Origin: Paenibacillus silviterrae
GTDB taxonomy: Bacteria; Bacillota; Bacilli; Paenibacillales; NBRC-103111
Reading direction: 5' to 3'
Length of the DNA stretch: 64,000 nt
NCBI RefSeq assembly: GCF_030167925.1
Contig: NZ_JASKUT010000001.1
Location: 4,734,501 to 4,798,500 of the forward strand
Part shown: piece by piece, positions 55,588 through 64,000 of the stretch
Layout: each line of letters opens with the position of its first letter
Numbering within the stretch: the first letter of the stretch is position 1
Made by a program: the position numbers and the translations under genes
Notes under the pieces: model-generated
Databases searched by the model: none
Seen by the model: only the letters and a program-made list of their open reading frames with translations
Told to the model about the DNA's origin: nothing

Positions 55588-56310
55588 ATGTGGGATTGGA
55601 GCTACGCCGTCGAAATCCTGCCGGAGCTGCTGCAGGGCTTACAGATCACCGTGCTGGCGACATTCGGGGGCTTCGCCTTCGCCTGTATCGGGGGGCTGGT
55701 CATGGCCTTGGCCGTAAGCTCCCGGTGGAAAGTGATCTCCGTCTGCTCGAGATTTTGCTTGGAGTTTATCCGCAACACTCCGTTGCTGGTCCAAATCTTT
55801 TTTCTGTATTATACCCTTCCTAAACTCATGAATATCTCTCTATCTGCTTTTGCCGTAGGGATCATAGGACTGGGACTGCATTACAGCACTTATTTGTCGG
55901 AGGTATACCGCTCGGGAATTCAAGCGGTCCCTCGCGGACAATGGGAAGCGGCAGTGGCCTTGAACTATCCGAAAGTAAAAACATGGACGACGATTATCCT
56001 GCCCCAAGCCATTCCGCCCGTCATTCCCATTATGGGGAACTACCTGATTGTCATGTTTAAAGAAACCCCCATTCTATCAGCCATTACGCTCGTTGAAATG
56101 CTGCTGACCGCCAAAAACATCGTTTCGCAATCGTACCGGGTGTTCGAGCCCTATACGCTGGTGGGTATATTGTTTCTCTTGATCAGCTACCCCGCATCCT
56201 TGCTCGTGCAGCGTCTGGAGAAGAGGCTGAGCCTGCAAGTGAAACAGGGAGCCGCCTCATCCGCCGTACAGGACAAAAGACCAACTTCAGAAAGAGGGGT
56301 GGGAGCTTGA
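55588..56310 (+). CDS. ehuD: Ectoine-type ABC transporter permease
   Basis: 240 residues, homologous to ehuC. It has the permease signature FIRNTPLLVQIFFLYYTLPK and the EAA loop GQWEAAVALNYPKVKTWTTI then ILPQA. Its C-terminal tail (QVKQGAASSAVQDKRPTSER) is longer than usual and hydrophilic. The stop overlaps the TTG start of ehuA by 4 bp, so translation is coupled. Confidence 0.92.
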   Translation: MWDWSYAVEILPELLQGLQITVLATFGGFAFACIGGLVMALAVSSRWKVISVCSRFCLEFIRNTPLLVQIFFLYYTLPKLMNISLSAFAVGIIGLGLHYSTYLSEVYRSGIQAVPRGQWEAAVALNYPKVKTWTTIILPQAIPPVIPIMGNYLIVMFKETPILSAITLVEMLLTAKNIVSQSYRVFEPYTLVGILFLLISYPASLLVQRLEKRLSLQVKQGAASSAVQDKRPTSERGVGA

Positions 56311-57089
56311 TTCCTGTCGTCAAGTACAACAAAGTTAGCAAGCGCTACGGTGATACCGAGGTGCTGAAGGAAATCGATCTTGAGCTGACTCCGGGGGAGA
56401 AGCTCGCGATCATCGGTCCCAGCGGCTCGGGCAAAACGACGCTCGGCCGCATGCTGATGACCCTGGAGGAGCCGACCTCGGGCACGATCGAGGTGGACGG
56501 CGAGCTGCTCTGGCACAGGAAGGTGCCAAACGGTCTGATGCGGGCGAATGAGAAGCATCTGCATCGGATGCGAAGCAAGATCGGCATGGTGTTTCAGCAT
56601 TTCAACCTGTTTCCGCACATGAGCGTACTGCGCAATGTGACGGAGGCTCCTCGCAAGGTTCTCGGCCTCCCCAAGGAAGAGGCCGAGGAGCAAGCCGTAT
56701 CGATGCTCCGCAAGGTAGGGCTGGAGCATAAGCTGGAGGCTTATCCCTCACAGCTCTCCGGCGGACAGAAGCAGCGTGTCGCCATTGCCCGCGCCCTTGT
56801 CATGAGGCCGAAGGTGATGGTATTCGATGAGGTGACCTCAGCACTGGACCCCGAGCTTGTCGGGGAGGTGCTGGAGGTCATCCGCGAGCTGGCCGATGAG
56901 GGCAGCATGGCCATGATGCTTATTACACATGAAATGGAATTCGCCAGGGAGATTGCCGACCGTGTCATCTTCGGGGCGGACGGCCGCATTGTGGAGGAGG
57001 GACCGCCTTCCGCGATCTTCGACCATCCGCAGAGCGAACGGCTTCGGTCCTTCTTACGGCGGTTCCGTACCTCAAGCGGAAGGGAGTGA
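56307..57089 (+). CDS. ehuA: Ectoine-type ABC transporter ATP-binding protein
   Basis: 260 residues from TTG 56307 (GAGGGGTGGG upstream). Walker A GPSGSGKTT, Q-loop MVFQHFNLFPHM, signature LSGGQKQRVAIARAL, Walker B KVMVFDE and the switch His in MLITHEMEFAREI are all present, as in polar amino-acid importers. The ectA start lies 3 bp after its stop. This makes uptake and synthesis of ectoine one transcriptional unit, as far as spacing can show. Confidence 0.93.
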   Translation: MIPVVKYNKVSKRYGDTEVLKEIDLELTPGEKLAIIGPSGSGKTTLGRMLMTLEEPTSGTIEVDGELLWHRKVPNGLMRANEKHLHRMRSKIGMVFQHFNLFPHMSVLRNVTEAPRKVLGLPKEEAEEQAVSMLRKVGLEHKLEAYPSQLSGGQKQRVAIARALVMRPKVMVFDEVTSALDPELVGEVLEVIRELADEGSMAMMLITHEMEFAREIADRVIFGADGRIVEEGPPSAIFDHPQSERLRSFLRRFRTSSGRE

Positions 57090-57092
57090 AGG

Positions 57093-57605
57093 ATGTTGAA
57101 CGAGAAAACGATTCGATTTCGTTATCCGGACAAAGAGGACGGCGCAGCCGTTTGGAGACTGGTGAAGGAGACGGAGACGCTCGATTTGAATGCCGTATAC
57201 TGCTACATCATGCTGTGCGATTATTTTCGCAGCACATGCGTTATAGCGGAGGATGAGGATGGCATTGTCGGATTTCTTTCGGCATTTCGTTCTCCGGAAC
57301 AGCAGGATTGCTTGTTTATCTGGCAGATTGCTGTGAAGCCGAGCCGCCAGCGCAGGGGCATTGGGAAGCAAATGCTGCATGAGCTGCTGCTCCGAGAGAG
57401 CAGCACGGATATTCGTTACCTGAAGGCGACGGTAAGTCCGTCCAATCTGGCTTCAAGGGGCTTGTTCCTGCATTTGGCCAAATCCCATAACCTGGAGTGC
57501 CATCTGTTTGAAGGGTATGCCGCATCCATGTTTCCTTCCGAACGAGCCCACGAAGAAGAGATTTTGTACAAGCTAGGCCCTTTGCCTAGGAAAGCCGTGA
57601 TGTAA
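57093..57605 (+). CDS. ectA: L-2,4-diaminobutyrate acetyltransferase
   Basis: 170 residues. GNAT enzyme that acetylates diaminobutyrate at the gamma amino group, the second step of ectoine synthesis. The EctA-typical ETLDLNAVYCYIMLCDYF is near residues 28-45, and the acetyl-CoA motif is WQIAVKPSRQRRGIGKQML. ectB follows after 36 bp with its own GGGAGGAAG site. In this operon the gene order is ehuBCDA-ectABCD. Confidence 0.95.
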   Translation: MLNEKTIRFRYPDKEDGAAVWRLVKETETLDLNAVYCYIMLCDYFRSTCVIAEDEDGIVGFLSAFRSPEQQDCLFIWQIAVKPSRQRRGIGKQMLHELLLRESSTDIRYLKATVSPSNLASRGLFLHLAKSHNLECHLFEGYAASMFPSERAHEEEILYKLGPLPRKAVM

Positions 57606-57641
57606 GTCAGACCCGAATCCGATTAAGGGAGGAAGATCAGA

Positions 57642-58943
57642 ATGAACACGACCCTACTGGAAAAGCCGTCCATGCACGTATTTGACCAAATGGAATCCGA
57701 GGTGCGTAGCTACTGCCGAAGCTTTACGACCGTGTTTGCCAAAGCGAAGAACGCCAAGTTGTGGGATAAGAACGGGAACGAATTCATTGATTTTTTCGCA
57801 GGGGCGGGAGCCTTGAATTATGGACATAACAATGAGCGGATCAAGGAAGCGTTAATCGACTATTTGGTCCAAGACGGGGTCACGCATAGCCTCGATATGG
57901 CCACCTCGGCCAAGGAGCACTTCCTTACGACATTCGAGCAAACGATCCTGAAGCCGCGTGGACTTCACTACAAAGTGATGTTCCCCGGACCTACAGGGAC
58001 CAACTCCGTGGAAAGCGCCCTGAAGATTGCCCGCAAGGTAACCGGCAGAACGGCGGTGATGTGCTTCACCAACGCCTTCCACGGCATGACGCTCGGCTCG
58101 CTGGCGGTTACCGGCAACAGCTTCAAGCGCAAGGGCGCGGGAGTGGAGCTGGGAAATTCGATCTTTATGCCGTACGACGGATACTTTGGGAAGGATTTGG
58201 ATACAACAGGGTATATTGAGAAGCTTCTGGATGACCCGGGAAGCGGAGTGCCGCTGCCGGCGGCGATCATTCTGGAAACCCTGCAAGGGGAGGGCGGTCT
58301 GAACGCCGCCAGCAAGAATTGGCTGCAGGGGATCGCAGCACTGTGCAAGGAGCGGGGGATTCTGTTGATCATCGATGACGTCCAGATGGGGTGCGGGCGG
58401 ACCGGCAGCTTCTTCAGCTTCGATGGGACGGAGATAGAACCGGACATCGTGTGCATGTCCAAGTCGATTGGGGGCTTCGGGCTGCCGATGGCGATAACGC
58501 TGCTTAAGCCCGAAATTGACCAATGGAACCCGGGTGAGCATAACGGAACGTTCCGAGGCAACAATCTGGGCTTCGTCGCGGCGGCAAAGGCGCTCGAATA
58601 TTGGCGGACGAACGAGCTGGAGCGGGAAATTGATGTGAAAAGCAGGATGATCCGCAAGATGTTAGAGCGTATGCTCAGCCTGCATCCTGAATTGCAGGGG
58701 GAGCTCCGGGGCAAGGGATTCATTCAAGGCATCGCCTTCAGCAGGCCGGAGCTGGCGGAGGAGCTGTGCGGAATCGTTTTTGAACAAGGCTTAATCATGG
58801 AAACCTCCGGCCCCCGCGGCGAGGTGGCGAAGCTGATGCCTCCGCTCACGATTGAAGCTGACGTGCTGGAACAAGGACTTCGCCTTCTGGCGGAAGGGTT
58901 CCAGGAGCTGGCGAGGCGGCAGGCAAAGAAGAACGATAACTGA
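57642..58943 (+). CDS. ectB: Diaminobutyrate-2-oxoglutarate transaminase
   Basis: 433 residues. Class III PLP aminotransferase that makes L-2,4-diaminobutyrate from aspartate semialdehyde and glutamate, the first step of ectoine synthesis. The N-terminal VFDQMESEVRSYCRSF is EctB-like, LIIDDVQMGCGRTG holds the cofactor Asp, and the PLP lysine is Lys274 in SKSIGGFGLPMAI. It works directly before EctA in the pathway. The start follows GGGAGGAAG. Confidence 0.95.
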   Translation: MNTTLLEKPSMHVFDQMESEVRSYCRSFTTVFAKAKNAKLWDKNGNEFIDFFAGAGALNYGHNNERIKEALIDYLVQDGVTHSLDMATSAKEHFLTTFEQTILKPRGLHYKVMFPGPTGTNSVESALKIARKVTGRTAVMCFTNAFHGMTLGSLAVTGNSFKRKGAGVELGNSIFMPYDGYFGKDLDTTGYIEKLLDDPGSGVPLPAAIILETLQGEGGLNAASKNWLQGIAALCKERGILLIIDDVQMGCGRTGSFFSFDGTEIEPDIVCMSKSIGGFGLPMAITLLKPEIDQWNPGEHNGTFRGNNLGFVAAAKALEYWRTNELEREIDVKSRMIRKMLERMLSLHPELQGELRGKGFIQGIAFSRPELAEELCGIVFEQGLIMETSGPRGEVAKLMPPLTIEADVLEQGLRLLAEGFQELARRQAKKNDN

Positions 58944-58964
58944 GGACAAGGGAGAGGAAAAGAC

Positions 58965-59348
58965 ATGATCGTAAAGCATTTGGAGCAGGTGCTGGGAACG
59001 AAGGACGATGTGGATACCGAGACGTGGAACTCAAGAAGATTGCTTCTGCAGAAGGACGGCATGGGGTTTTCCATGAACGACACGCTGATTAAGGCGGGAA
59101 CGGAAACCTTGATCTGGTATCAGAATCACCTGGAGGCCGTCTACTGCATCGAGGGAGAGGGCGAAATCGAGGTGATCGGGGGGGAGACGTACCCGATTCG
59201 GGCAGGAATGTTCTATGCGCTGAACGGAAACGAGAAGCACTACTTGCGCGCACAATCTCAGCTGCGCATGATCTGTGTGTTCAATCCGCCTCTTGTAGGA
59301 CGAGAGGTGCACGACGAGCAGGGGACCTATCCGCTGCTTACCAGCTAA
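58965..59348 (+). CDS. ectC: Ectoine synthase
   Basis: 127 residues, a single cupin domain. It closes N-gamma-acetyldiaminobutyrate to ectoine. MIVKHLEQVLGTKDDVDTET and the cupin motifs (IWYQNHLEAVYCIEGEGEIE, YALNGNEKHYLRA) are standard for EctC; Glu and His residues in these motifs bind the metal. The gene starts 21 bp after ectB, with GGGAGAGG upstream. Confidence 0.96.
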   Translation: MIVKHLEQVLGTKDDVDTETWNSRRLLLQKDGMGFSMNDTLIKAGTETLIWYQNHLEAVYCIEGEGEIEVIGGETYPIRAGMFYALNGNEKHYLRAQSQLRMICVFNPPLVGREVHDEQGTYPLLTS

Positions 59349-59383
59349 CTGCATTCGAACCCAATTTTAAGGAGGATACGAGC

Positions 59384-60283
59384 ATGACTTCAGCCAATCA
59401 TTTGACGCAAGCGGACGCTATTGCCGATGTATATCCATCCCGAGTTCGGGAGTACCCCGAATGGATCGAACGTAAGGATCCCGTTGTATATTCTGCCTGG
59501 TCGCCGGATGCGCCGATCAGCCGTATCCAATCCGAATTTTATGAGCAGAACGGCTATTTGTTTCTCGACAGCTTTTTTGCGGAAGTGGAAATTGCCGAAT
59601 TTAAAAACGAGCTGAAGCGCCTTTGGAAGGAGGGCCGGCGTTCCGAAGCGAAGGAAGTGATTCGCGAGCCGGGCAGCGAAGAGGTCCGATCGATCTTCGC
59701 CGTGCATCAGCATAATGAGCTCTTCAGGCAGCTGGCCGAGCATCCGCGGGTCAAGGGGATCGTCGATTATTTGCTGGGCGGGCCCACGTACGTCCATCAG
59801 TCCAGGATTAACTTCAAGCCTGGGTTTACGGGCAAGGAGTTCTACTGGCATTCGGATTTCGAGACCTGGCATGTGGAGGATGGCATGCCCCGAATGAGGG
59901 CGCTCAGCTGCTCCATCGCCTTAGAGGATAACTATGACTACAACGGCCCCTTGATGGTGGTTCCGGGTTCTCACCGGACCTTCATCTCGTGCGTGGGGCA
60001 AACGCCGGATCAGCATTATAAGGAGTCGCTCCGCCGTCAGGAGTACGGCGTTCCCGATCAGGACAGCCTTACGAAGCTGGTGCGAGAGCACGGCATCCAT
60101 ACCCCTGTCGGGAAGGCCGGGTCGATCGTACTGTTTGATTGCAACATTATGCACGGGTCGAACAGCAACATCTCTCCGATGCCCCGGAGCAATGTATTTC
60201 TAGTGTACAACAGCGAAGCGAATCGTCTCGTTGCCCCGTACTCCGGGCAAGCGCCAAGACCCGGATATATCGCAGAAAGGTAG
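59384..60283 (+). CDS. ectD: Ectoine 5-hydroxylase
   Basis: 299 residues, the usual EctD length. A non-heme iron and 2-oxoglutarate-dependent dioxygenase that converts ectoine to 5-hydroxyectoine. The iron ligands are His156 and Asp158 (FYWHSDFETWH) and His257 (NIMHGSNSN). SRINFKPGFTGKEFYWHSDF is the EctD signature. AAGGAGGA precedes the start. Its presence means the strain can make both compatible solutes; the reaction needs oxygen. Confidence 0.96.
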   Translation: MTSANHLTQADAIADVYPSRVREYPEWIERKDPVVYSAWSPDAPISRIQSEFYEQNGYLFLDSFFAEVEIAEFKNELKRLWKEGRRSEAKEVIREPGSEEVRSIFAVHQHNELFRQLAEHPRVKGIVDYLLGGPTYVHQSRINFKPGFTGKEFYWHSDFETWHVEDGMPRMRALSCSIALEDNYDYNGPLMVVPGSHRTFISCVGQTPDQHYKESLRRQEYGVPDQDSLTKLVREHGIHTPVGKAGSIVLFDCNIMHGSNSNISPMPRSNVFLVYNSEANRLVAPYSGQAPRPGYIAER

Positions 60284-60871: not shown

Positions 60872-60900
60872 TTGACAATGTTTTCCTTATCTTGTAACAT
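60872..60900 (+). promoter_or_regulatory. Promoter of the c-di-AMP riboswitch transcript
   Basis: TTGACA (60872-60877), 17-bp spacer, TAACAT (60895-60900). The riboswitch begins just downstream of the expected transcription start. Confidence 0.78.
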
Positions 60901-60904
60901 AAGT

Positions 60905-61030
60905 GTACGCTTAATTTCCGACATCGTCGGAAAGCGGGGGAACCAATGTTTTTGGGGCGAATCATGAAGTCATCGATGTAGGGAACCATCTTTCCCGAGC
61001 CCGGCAGCTAACCTCGTCAGCAGTAGATGG
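60905..61030 (+). promoter_or_regulatory. c-di-AMP (ydaO-yuaA) riboswitch aptamer
   Basis: The conserved blocks appear in order: CGCTTAATTTCCGAC-ATC-GTCGGAAAGCG stem, then GGGGGAACCA (60936-60945), GGGGCGAATC (60954-60963), TAGGGAACC, CCCGAGCCCGGCAGC and TAACCTCGT (to 61017) followed by CAGC. This is a near-complete match to the ydaO consensus as I know it. GGGTCAA (61029-61035) can pair with TTGACCC (61073-61079), an alternative to the terminator just downstream. In known cases c-di-AMP binding promotes termination. The ruled genes would be kamA-like and BCCT. Confidence 0.92.
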
Positions 61031-61074
61031 GTCAAGAATTGTTTGCATGCCTATGCATACTCAATGTGTGAATT

Positions 61075-61097
61075 GACCCGGCGCATCGGGTCTTTTT
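61075..61097 (+). terminator. First riboswitch terminator
   Basis: GACCCG (61075-61080), loop GCGCAT, CGGGTC (61087-61092), TTTTT. Its left arm overlaps TTGACCC, which can instead pair with GGGTCAA at 61029, giving a classical terminator/antiterminator switch. Confidence 0.82.
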
Positions 61098-61109
61098 GTG
61101 TTTTCCGGG

Positions 61110-61187
61110 AGACCCGTGCCCATGAGAATAGGGGAACTTTCGTCCTGTAAGGCGAAGCCTTTTTCATGAGCAGAGGGTCTTTTTTTG
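61110..61187 (+). terminator. Second, elongated terminator in tandem
   Basis: AGACCC (61110-61115) pairs with GGGTCT (61175-61180), CATGAGAA (61121-61128) with TTTTCATG (61161-61168), and an inner stem lies between; seven T follow (61181-61187). It acts as a back-up terminator or a second control point behind the riboswitch. Confidence 0.7.
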
Positions 61188-61266
61188 TTTTGCTCTTTTG
61201 AAAAGCGGAAAAGAAGGACAATAGGCCACCAAGCATTGTGAGTTTTTCTTGTTTCAGAGCCTGTTT

Positions 61267-61460
61267 AATCGCAGATGTGTGATTACTGTTGCTCGATGGG
61301 CATGATTTCGCGAGTGTAGCGGCAGATTTGCAATTGGGCGGGAAGGAAGGTTGGTTTTTCGTGTTTCATGACCTGTGTAATCGCAGATGTGCAATTATCG
61401 GCGCTCGGAGGCCATGCTTTCGAACGTGTAATGGCAGATTTGCAATTAGGTGAGACCATG
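61267..61460. repeat. Tandem intergenic repeat, two units of 112 bp
   Basis: TAATCGCAGATGTG occurs at 61266 and 61378, and GGCAGATTTGCAATT at 61321 and 61433. The module spacing is 51, 61 and 51 nt, so the unit is 112 bp. The core GCAGATTTGC is a small inverted repeat. When reversed, the unit resembles that at 12.7 kb (shared AATCGCA ... GGCAGA ... ATT layout). It lies between the riboswitch terminators and the kamA-like gene. No gene is seen in it. Confidence 0.75.
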
Positions 61461-61502
61461 GGCTGTTTTTTTATCCATCTGTTTATATGAGGAGGAGCGA
61501 GT

Positions 61503-62663
61503 ATGGCACAACCGAAGTATATCACGGACATTGATAAAATTGCAGAAATACCGGAGCAGGAAAGAAGCATGCTGAAGCCCATCACGGATAAATTTGTGTT
61601 TCGAGTGAACGATTATTATTTAAAGCTGATCGATTGGAACGACCCTCAGGATCCCATTAAAAAGCTTGTTATCCCCAATCAAGGGGAGTTGTCGGAGTAT
61701 GGACGTTGGGATGCTTCGGACGAGGATACCAATTATGTGGTTCCCGGATGTCAGCATAAGTACAGCACGACGGCACTGCTCATCGTCTCCGAGGTGTGCG
61801 GCTCCTATTGCAGGTATTGCTTCAGGAAGCGGCTGTTTCGCAATGATGTGAAGGAGGCAATGTCGGATGTCAGCCCGGGCATCGACTATATTGCAAAGCA
61901 TCCTGAGATTAACAACGTGCTTCTCACCGGCGGAGACAGCTTGATTCTTGCAACGGCCAAGTTGGCTAAGATCCTGGAACGACTCAGACAGATTGAGCAT
62001 GTAAAGATTATACGGCTAGGCTCCAAAATTCCTGTATTTAATCCGATGCGCATTTATGAGGACCAGGAATTATTAGATACAATCCACATGTATTCCACTC
62101 CGGAGAAGCGAATTTACGTTATGGCTCACATCAATCATCCCCGCGAAATAACGAAGGAGGCTGTAAAAGGCTTTAAAGCTCTGCAAGAGGCCGGAGCCAT
62201 CGTTGTAAACCAGACGCCGGTACTAAGAGGAATTAATGATGACCCTGCGATCCTTGGAGAGCTGCTCGACAAGCTGTCCTGGGCCGGTGTAACGCCATAT
62301 TACTTTTTTATCAATCGTCCCGTAGCGGGAAATCGGGAATTTGTACTGCCTTTGGAGCGGGTGTACCGGATCGTGGAGGAAGCGAAGGCCAGGACATCGG
62401 GGCTCGGGAAGCGGGTTCGCTTATCGATGAGCCATACCTCCGGTAAAATCGAAATATTAGCTATCGAAGCAGGCAAAGCCTATTTAAAGTACCATCAATC
62501 GCGCGACGGGGAATATGGGAAATTCATGATGCTGGATTGTCCTCAGGATGCGGCCTGGTTCGACGATCTTCCCGGAAGCGAGAAGCATTGGGCTAAGCCC
62601 GGCAAGAAAGCAAGCGGGATTGTATCTGTTAATGAACTCCCCGATGTTCCGATAGGGAAATGA
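61503..62663 (+). CDS. KamA-family radical SAM protein, aminomutase-like with altered substrate site
   Basis: 386 residues, start ATG after GAGGAGGAGCG. The radical SAM cluster is Cys99, Cys103, Cys106 (CGSYCRYCFRKR), NNVLLTGGDSL is the SAM motif, and Lys315 (MSHTSGKIEI) aligns with the PLP lysine of lysine 2,3-aminomutase. Asp246 (LRGIND) is kept. Where lysine enzymes have YQCDLSLG this protein has FINRPVAG, so Arg272 replaces the Asp that binds the lysine side-chain amine. The substrate is therefore probably not lysine. Shorter than YodO (about 470). A c-di-AMP riboswitch precedes it and an osmolyte transporter follows 66 bp later. Confidence 0.85.
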   Translation: MAQPKYITDIDKIAEIPEQERSMLKPITDKFVFRVNDYYLKLIDWNDPQDPIKKLVIPNQGELSEYGRWDASDEDTNYVVPGCQHKYSTTALLIVSEVCGSYCRYCFRKRLFRNDVKEAMSDVSPGIDYIAKHPEINNVLLTGGDSLILATAKLAKILERLRQIEHVKIIRLGSKIPVFNPMRIYEDQELLDTIHMYSTPEKRIYVMAHINHPREITKEAVKGFKALQEAGAIVVNQTPVLRGINDDPAILGELLDKLSWAGVTPYYFFINRPVAGNREFVLPLERVYRIVEEAKARTSGLGKRVRLSMSHTSGKIEILAIEAGKAYLKYHQSRDGEYGKFMMLDCPQDAAWFDDLPGSEKHWAKPGKKASGIVSVNELPDVPIGK

Positions 62664-62729
62664 GGCATACCGAATAGCATCTATTGCCCGCGGATACCTT
62701 AAATGGTAAAAAGGTCAACGGAGGCTTTC

Positions 62730-64000
62730 ATGGTTTTTACAATAGCGGCAGTTATTATTCTCCTGTTTGTGCTCTGGGGCAGCTTGAATCCAAGCGGTCT
62801 CGCGAAGCAGGCTAGTGAATTTCTTGCTTACACGACGACGAATTTCGGCTGGTTTTACTTGTTCGCCGCCTTCGGATTTCTTATCTTTGTCGTTTATTTA
62901 GCGTTCAGCAAGTACGGAGGCATTCGTCTTGGCGAGGACGAGGATGAGCCGGAGTATTCCAACGTAAGCTGGTTTGCCATGCTGTTCAGCGCGGGGATGG
63001 GAATCGGGCTTGTCTTCTGGGGAGTGGCCGAGCCGCTGTCCCACTACCTATCCCCCCCTCAGGCAGCGGAAAGCCAGTCCGCCGAGGCGGCCAGACTTGC
63101 CATGCGATATGCTTTCTTTCATTGGGGACTTCATCCATGGGCCATCTATTCCGTCGTCGGAGTAGCGCTTGCTTATTTTCAATTCCGTAAAAAACGCAAG
63201 GGTCTGATCAGCCATACCTTTTATCCGCTGCTTGGTGACCGGGTTGACGGGGTGCTGGGGAAGCTTATCGACATCCTTGCCGTCATCGCTACGTGCTTCG
63301 GGGTAGCCACCTCGCTTGGCCTTGGCACGCTCCAGATTAACGGAGGGCTTCAGTTTCTATGGGGTGTACCGAACGGAGTAGGTGTCCAAATCGGCATCCT
63401 TGTAGTGCTCACAGTGCTGTATATGATCTCGGCAACAACGGGGCTGGACAAAGGGATCAAAATGCTGAGCAATGCCAACCTGCTGGTGGCTTTAGGCTTG
63501 CTGCTCGCAACCTTCGTGCTCGGACCCACCTCGTTTCTGCTCGATACCTTCACGGTGACGCTAGGGGGCTATCTGCAGAACCTGATCCAGATGAGTTTGC
63601 GGTTAACACCCTTTACCCAAGCAACCTGGGTCAGCAATTGGACGCTGTTCTATTGGGCTTGGTGGATCGCGTGGGCGCCGTTTGTCGGCATGTTCATTGC
63701 CCGCGTATCCCGCGGCCGGACAGTGAAGGAGTTTGTACTGGGTGTGCTGTTCATTCCCAGTCTGTTCAGCTTCCTCTGGTTCTCCGTCTTCGGGGGCGTC
63801 GGGCTGCATCAGCAAGTACTGGAGGGCTTGCCTATTGCCCAAGCGGTTAGTAAGGATATGACCTCCGCTTTGTTCATAACCTTGGGGCATTTGCCGTTAG
63901 GCAAGATCCTGGGAGCTTTGGCCACATTGCTGATTATTACGTTTTTCATTACGTCGGCAGATTCAGCTACCTATGTACTTGGAATGTTTACCTCCGGAGG
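62730..64000 (+). CDS. BCCT-family betaine/carnitine/choline-type transporter (cut by window end)
   Basis: At least 423 residues; the frame is open at the right edge. ATG 62730 follows GGAGG. Hydrophobic helices from the first residue, the motif FSAGMGIGLVFWGVAEPLSH (about 85-104) and the BCCT signature FYWAWWIAWAPFVGMFIARV then SRGR (about 307-330) are present; this Trp-rich stretch forms the cation-pi substrate site. ITFFITSADSATYVLGM matches the conserved 10th-11th helix region. BCCT carriers import betaine and related solutes with Na+ or H+. Position after the kamA-like gene suggests joint c-di-AMP control. Confidence 0.95.
   Translation, partial: MVFTIAAVIILLFVLWGSLNPSGLAKQASEFLAYTTTNFGWFYLFAAFGFLIFVVYLAFSKYGGIRLGEDEDEPEYSNVSWFAMLFSAGMGIGLVFWGVAEPLSHYLSPPQAAESQSAEAARLAMRYAFFHWGLHPWAIYSVVGVALAYFQFRKKRKGLISHTFYPLLGDRVDGVLGKLIDILAVIATCFGVATSLGLGTLQINGGLQFLWGVPNGVGVQIGILVVLTVLYMISATTGLDKGIKMLSNANLLVALGLLLATFVLGPTSFLLDTFTVTLGGYLQNLIQMSLRLTPFTQATWVSNWTLFYWAWWIAWAPFVGMFIARVSRGRTVKEFVLGVLFIPSLFSFLWFSVFGGVGLHQQVLEGLPIAQAVSKDMTSALFITLGHLPLGKILGALATLLIITFFITSADSATYVLGMFTSG

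Follow-up and report, generated by a model that had tools for sequence, protein, structure and literature searches.

Control of an aminomutase gene by a cyclic di-AMP (c-di-AMP) riboswitch is already in print. In Dehalobacter sp. CF a tandem Na+/c-di-AMP riboswitch is placed on ablA, and Na+ switches have been described for both eam and ablA (PMC9337991). beta-Glutamate is a static compatible solute, known above all from methanogens and also from a few bacteria (PMC1224877). In this study, we describe a related arrangement in Paenibacillus silviterrae, located near the right-hand end of a window of 64,000 nucleotides (contig positions 4734501-4798500, 7.4 Mb genome). Here, a c-di-AMP riboswitch precedes the gene of a KamA-like radical S-adenosylmethionine (SAM) enzyme that we name KamAx. 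The conserved unit is the riboswitch together with the KamA-like gene. The sequence comparisons are best explained by KamAx being a distinct 2,3-aminomutase subfamily and not the lysine aminomutase AblA, and we consider it somewhat probable that this c-di-AMP-controlled enzyme supplies the cell with beta-glutamate, as an osmolyte, at low c-di-AMP.

The leader and the gene are composed of the following elements:

60872..60900, + strand: sigma-70-type promoter TTGACA-17-TAACAT, agreeing with the consensus at 10 of 12 positions
60898..61037, + strand: aptamer of a c-di-AMP (ydaO/yuaA) riboswitch, conserved at its 3' edge GATGGGTCAA (RF00379; orthologs)
61029..61079, + strand: candidate antiterminator read from the sequence, GGGUCAA (61029-61035) pairing with UUGACCC (61073-61079)
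61075..61099, + strand: intrinsic terminator 1 from the terminator scan, hairpin 61075-61092 with a T-rich tail
61111..61186, + strand: terminator 2, a larger predicted hairpin from GACCC (61111) to GGGTC (61179) with a T run
61503..62663, + strand: KamAx, a KamA-family radical SAM, pyridoxal phosphate (PLP)-type 2,3-aminomutase of 386 amino acids (TIGR00238; AlphaFold2 model; residues)

The aptamer was recognized by a covariance search of the leader with 82.6 bits (E 9.8e-19, gathering cut-off 38) and is one of six RF00379 aptamers in the whole genome. Promoter-type patterns occur at chance level in the searched stretch (two found, 2.3 expected in shuffles), and two terminator-like sites were found where 1.6 were expected. 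The scan caught only the inner stem of terminator 2 (61138-61157), and the region 61100-61200 folds at -33.4 kcal/mol. Comparison with the 62 orthologous leaders that carry a riboswitch reveals the same layout. Within the 60 nt preceding the aptamer, 57 of them have a promoter matching at least 9 of 12 positions, as opposed to 2 of the 61 control windows taken some 300 nt farther up. GGGTC marks the edge of the aptamer in 61 leaders, 60 have GACCC, and a hairpin of the terminator-1 type is present in 54. The promoter, the ydaO-yuaA aptamer, the antiterminator/terminator pair and the second terminator had all been proposed in a first-pass annotation of the stretch, and each of them is upheld. 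An independent promoter in 61190-61500, which that annotation had envisaged as a way to make the gene blind to the riboswitch, was not found by a scan of the + strand.

As read from its sequence, the KamAx leader has the anatomy of a transcription-attenuating OFF switch. We infer its direction, OFF at high c-di-AMP, from this architecture plus the tested Dehalobacter case (PMC9337991). The likeness to Dehalobacter ablA consists in attenuation by a c-di-AMP OFF switch ahead of an osmolyte gene from the KamA family. Unlike the tandem switch reported there, the KamAx leader has a single aptamer, two terminators and no second Rfam RNA besides RF00379 in an Rfam search, and the enzyme behind it is of another subfamily.

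Two observations concern the surroundings of this leader. The interval 61219-61442, between the terminators and kamAx, consists of two tandem copies of a 112-nt repeat that are 73% alike, with seven related matches elsewhere in the same genome. A second c-di-AMP riboswitch (359-499 of locus L008; loci are denoted by L and genomes by G) is situated about 9 kb downstream of the window aptamer. It closely resembles the kamAx riboswitch, expression platform included, and precedes small uncharacterised open reading frames (ORFs), followed by a gene that we take to be UspA-like.

The association of riboswitch and gene extends well beyond the window. Among 29 loci of the window family, 27 (19/20 and 8/9) have RF00379 immediately ahead of the orthologous gene, L026 and L034 being without it; 26 of the 29 coincide with places in a larger set of 80 named KamAx loci with flanks of up to 8 kb. 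In the latter set, a covariance model derived from 21 aptamers finds the riboswitch upstream of KamAx in 62 loci, in addition to an incomplete match at L081 that is counted only where stated. A weak match at L064, incomplete and downstream of its KamAx, was excluded from the counts. The remaining 17 loci comprise six from Paenibacillus (L091, L107, L118, L120, L136, L143) and eleven of Bacillus type (Bacillus, Alkalihalobacterium/-bacillus, Halalkalibacter/-bacterium, Anaerobacillus, Evansella). Eight of these 17 were searched for other Rfam RNAs, with a cyclic di-GMP riboswitch some 4 kb off in L127 as the single match. In a FastTree phylogeny of 132 proteins (identical rows removed), 81 distinct sequences from Paenibacillus, Cohnella, Thermobacillus and further members of the same order form a clade with a support of 0.969, and the window KamAx branches among the Paenibacillus sequences. 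Counting the window and L081, 74 of the 81 have the riboswitch; those without are L066 and the six Paenibacillus loci mentioned above. In a survey of 398 genomes of the class, KamAx is present in 56 and absent from 342.

Membership of the KamA family, as put forward in the first pass for a gene followed by a BCCT gene on one strand (ORFs 61503-62663 and 62703 on), is supported by 223.1 bits against TIGR00238 (cut-off 199.2). The models for described subfamilies give scores below their cut-offs: 208.8 versus 525.4 for lysine aminomutase AblA (TIGR03820, lys_2_3_AblA), 215.4 versus 396.25 for the lysine-like aminomutase and 220.9 versus 650 for glutamate 2,3-aminomutase (EAM, TIGR04368). Identity as arginine 2,3-aminomutase (TIGR04468, 195.4 versus 600) or as the EF-P modifying EpmB (TIGR03821, 192.2 versus 369.3) is ruled out by the same type of score. 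The AlphaFold2 model (pLDDT 79, pTM 0.82) matches the lysine 2,3-aminomutase (LAM) structure 2a5h with Z 30.3 and a root-mean-square deviation of 4.4 over 320 residues, the next best match having Z 13.7. A search of the genome with KamAx as query yielded no other KamA-family gene at E 1e-30.

The residues of KamAx allow a further distinction. The motifs of the family are in place (CxxxCxxC at 99-106, R108, R272, K315), and all 119 aligned KamAx sequences have C99/C103/C106, R108 and, as the PLP lysine, K315. The position of LAM Asp293 (YYIYQCD) is occupied by Arg272 in all 119 (YYFFINR) and by Lys in EAM (YYIFHAK), while the position of LAM Asp330 is Asn in EAM and either S308 or a gap in KamAx; at S308 the 119 sequences have S in 100, V in 11, C in 5 and A in 3. 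We take Asp293 and Asp330 to be the lysine side-chain contacts of LAM, and Lys and Asn to be the counterpart pair in EAM; the lysine-type side-chain residues are absent from KamAx. A paralog with 51% identity (L164, G022:C46) is two residues short in the cluster motif spacing and has lost the following Arg, and is probably inactive or altered.

EAM offers the most direct comparison. Like KamAx, it is a radical SAM/PLP enzyme of the KamA family with a cationic residue at the LAM Asp293 position, and a c-di-AMP riboswitch is common upstream of its gene. Of 30 EAM loci (L152-L161 and L193-L212), 18 have RF00379 immediately ahead of the gene and on its strand, at 52-405 nt from the start of the protein match, compared to 1 of 20 LAM loci (L230; Fisher p 7e-5). 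The EAM loci are the ten top-scoring ones (8/10 with riboswitch) plus twenty hand-picked from the next rows (10/20), and the LAM loci were hand-picked from rows below the EAM cut-off, so that neither set is a random draw; both were taken from within the phylum but outside the window's class, presumably from Clostridia. The expected residue motif was read in 27 of the 30 EAM and 18 of the 20 LAM loci, the remainder falling outside the pattern used. In a survey of 299 genomes of the phylum, EAM exceeds its cut-off in 104. A KamAx-type protein occurs in 12 genomes (two from the order of the window and ten others at 39-61% identity), and none of these has EAM over the cut-off (hypergeometric 0.005). 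Nor was EAM found over its cut-off in any of 80 KamAx-positive genomes of the window's class, these being the 80 of 94 listed genomes in which EAM and ablB were looked for. We favour the reading in which KamAx takes the place of EAM and c-di-AMP gates beta-glutamate.

In this model, the GGGUC/GACCC terminator or terminators would form at high c-di-AMP. When c-di-AMP falls, as under osmotic stress, GGGUCAA would pair with UUGACCC, the polymerase would read through and KamAx would be made. The enzyme would then convert L-glutamate to beta-glutamate (3-aminoglutarate) in a single step and with no partner genes, and the product could serve as a metabolically static compatible solute; the lack of both a conserved partner gene and ablB fits a one-step product. 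In the window, the transcript would probably also span the gene of a BCCT importer for glycine betaine, which would have been added locally. On a wider scale, we see the chances as evenly balanced that KamAx represents a second glutamate 2,3-aminomutase of non-orthologous origin, that a beta-glutamate-making KamA enzyme has been put under a c-di-AMP riboswitch twice (EAM elsewhere in the phylum, presumably in Clostridia, and KamAx in Paenibacillus and its kin), and that beta-glutamate is an overlooked osmolyte of soil Paenibacilli beside ectoine and glycine betaine.

Several points weigh against this proposal. KamAx stays far below the cut-off of the EAM model and forms a separate branch in the tree; it has Arg in place of Lys, the EAM Asn aligns with the variable S308 or a gap, and the surroundings of the PLP lysine are of the SHTSGK type instead of NAPxGxGK. 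Distant homologs that keep the Arg occur in natural-product-like clusters, either rhizobial with ectB and ATP-grasp genes or in Streptomyces beside a nonribosomal peptide synthetase, and Arg272 alone is thus no proof of glutamate. The Bacillus-type loci and ten relatives from other classes, all of which keep the Arg, lack a c-di-AMP riboswitch, and YheC/YheD- or ATP-grasp-like neighbours hint at further processing of the product in some lineages. EAM may be missing from the whole class, in which the EAM test covered almost only KamAx-positive members, and its absence beside KamAx need therefore not mean replacement; the co-occurrence statistics, moreover, ignore phylogeny. Older nuclear magnetic resonance evidence disfavoured the formation of beta-glutamate by a glutamate aminomutase in methanogens (PMC1224877). 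Our literature search yielded no biochemistry on any KamAx member and no report on the subfamily, although a mention in the original c-di-AMP riboswitch paper is possible.

The enzyme may instead act on another substrate, such as glutamine, 2-aminoadipate, 2,4-diaminobutyrate or an N-acyl derivative from the ectoine pathway, and give a different beta-amino-acid osmolyte, an alternative that we judge unlikely but worth serious attention. In such a substrate, a carboxylate or carbonyl group could be the partner of Arg272. Homologs with 38-41% identity on rhizobial plasmids (L178, L179) are found beside ectB and ATP-grasp-like genes, supplemented by an aspartate-semialdehyde dehydrogenase in L178 and by a gene annotated as glutamate 5-kinase in L179, in what looks like an undescribed small-molecule cluster. 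Among the named loci, ect/ehu clusters occur within 8 kb of KamAx in eight of the 80 (L073, L075, L078, L090, L092, L134, L139, L142), either upstream on the same strand, upstream on the opposite strand or downstream. Across the class, ectC is present in 19 of 56 KamAx-positive and 28 of 342 KamAx-negative genomes (Fisher p 1.3e-6, uncorrected for phylogeny), an osmotic context that also counts in favour of the beta-glutamate reading. The other 37 KamAx-positive genomes have no ectC, however, which rules out an ectoine intermediate as the general substrate, and the riboswitch that EAM genes commonly have speaks for glutamate over the other candidates.

We regard it as improbable that the beta-amino acid serves spore or envelope peptides and that the c-di-AMP control belongs to the cell wall and not to osmotic balance. 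The distant KamAx genes of L170-L173 adjoin genes that we take to be YheC/YheD-like or ATP-grasp-like, those of L170-L172 being presumably spore-coat ATP-grasp-like, yet these neighbours belong to riboswitch-free branches and the riboswitch clade has no such conserved neighbour. The other c-di-AMP switches of the genome point both ways: some precede genes that, by our own labels, resemble NlpC/P60 and 3D-domain wall proteins, whereas one precedes what are presumably K+ uptake genes.

The first-pass annotation had linked the gene to KamA/AblA and lysine. A role of KamAx as a lysine 2,3-aminomutase, with N-epsilon-acetyl-beta-lysine or beta-lysine itself as the outcome, now appears very improbable. 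The superfamily and the 2a5h fold are shared, together with CxxxCxxC, the Arg after the cluster and the PLP lysine, and a c-di-AMP riboswitch does occur on Dehalobacter ablA (PMC9337991) as on the single LAM locus mentioned above. In KamAx, however, Asp293 is replaced by the invariant Arg and Asp330 is missing, the score against the AblA model is less than half of the cut-off, and the regulatory context differs from that of LAM genes, of which only the one has the riboswitch. The gene ablB (TIGR03827), correctly stated by the first pass to be absent up to the window end, was not found in the whole genome either; it is lacking in 59 of the 80 KamAx-positive genomes and present in 21, and in the four cases compared (G042, G053, G066, G083) it shares a contig with a LAM-like paralog. 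Relatives carry such separate LAM-like genes, with 33-36% identity. LAM-like matches below the EAM cut-off were found in 35 of the 80 KamAx-positive genomes, and in none of the 12 of the phylum sample. Since KamAx and LAM coexist in these genomes, KamAx is not simply the local LAM. On these grounds (NCBIfam scores, Arg272, missing ablB and coexisting LAM-like genes) the AblA/AblB pathway was rejected.

The remaining neighbourhood of KamAx in the window is made up of osmoprotection genes:

62703..63998, + strand: BCCT glycine betaine transporter, continuing 262 bases past the window end (NF047988)
55588..60283, + strand: ehuD, ehuA, ectA, ectB, ectC, ectD (NCBIfam models over cut-off)

That KamAx and this BCCT carrier form one solute system in which the carrier imports the beta-amino acid is scarcely credible, for despite a 39-nt gap on the same strand in which the terminator scan found none, and a KamAx-BCCT-GbsR-OpuA order that recurs in L087, a BCCT gene lies within 8 kb of KamAx in only 3 of 80 loci, the carrier scores as a glycine betaine equivalog and the L087 BCCT is only 52% identical. 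The full protein (L007:12204-13763, 519 amino acids) reaches 717.5 bits against the NF047988 equivalog cut-off of 650, as expected of a glycine betaine BCCT, which leaves import of a related beta-amino acid unsupported. Of the beta-amino-acid solute unit that the first pass had suggested, such a solute thus survives as the likely product, and its import by the BCCT does not. In contrast to a typical glycine betaine BCCT, the window gene sits downstream of a c-di-AMP-controlled gene and may be subject to the switch.

Neither did the riboswitch-kamA-BCCT order, suggested as a system in its own right, withstand the survey. Besides the window, BCCT directly follows KamAx in L087 only; it lies 1.8 kb downstream in L133 and upstream in L134. 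A set of 58 loci with flanks of 1.5 kb, which has 26 places in common with the named set, yielded BCCT only at L046 and on the opposite strand. BCCT was accordingly rejected as a conserved partner of KamAx. The riboswitch clade has no conserved neighbour at all, only lineage-specific synteny. In essence, therefore, KamAx stands alone and is found repeatedly in the vicinity of osmoprotection genes. The window is one such case, in line with the osmolyte role suggested in the first pass: to the ehu and ect genes upstream are added, past the window end, a CudC-related regulator (190 bits, below the cut-off of 218) and betaine transporter genes of ProV type, with a ProV-type ATPase over its subfamily cut-off and ORFs for a permease and a binding protein.

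Other contexts are found in more distant members. In seven of the eleven Bacillus-type named loci, the riboswitch-free KamAx gene is transcribed divergently from that of a HemL-like aminotransferase, which is accompanied by an RpiR-type regulator and, in most of the seven, by TAXI-TRAP genes beyond; L121, L147, L149 and their relatives have this layout. The HemL-like protein is below all cut-offs and has solved relatives that include glutamate-1-semialdehyde aminomutases and beta-transaminases. For the TAXI protein, a putative GluR0 ligand-binding core is the best solved match, and we count this setting in favour of the glutamate reading. The layout could possibly represent a set for uptake and breakdown of a beta-amino acid. 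OLE RNAs (RF01071, above 420 bits) are located a few kb from KamAx relatives of another class (L243:7725-8349 and L245:8315-8938).

In summary, KamAx is widespread in the class and could easily be misannotated as a lysine aminomutase. EAM, KamAx and LAM together provide a clean comparison for substrate selection in radical SAM aminomutases. If the proposed glutamate substrate is correct, a common group of soil bacteria would have an overlooked osmolyte, the synthesis of which would be set directly by c-di-AMP.

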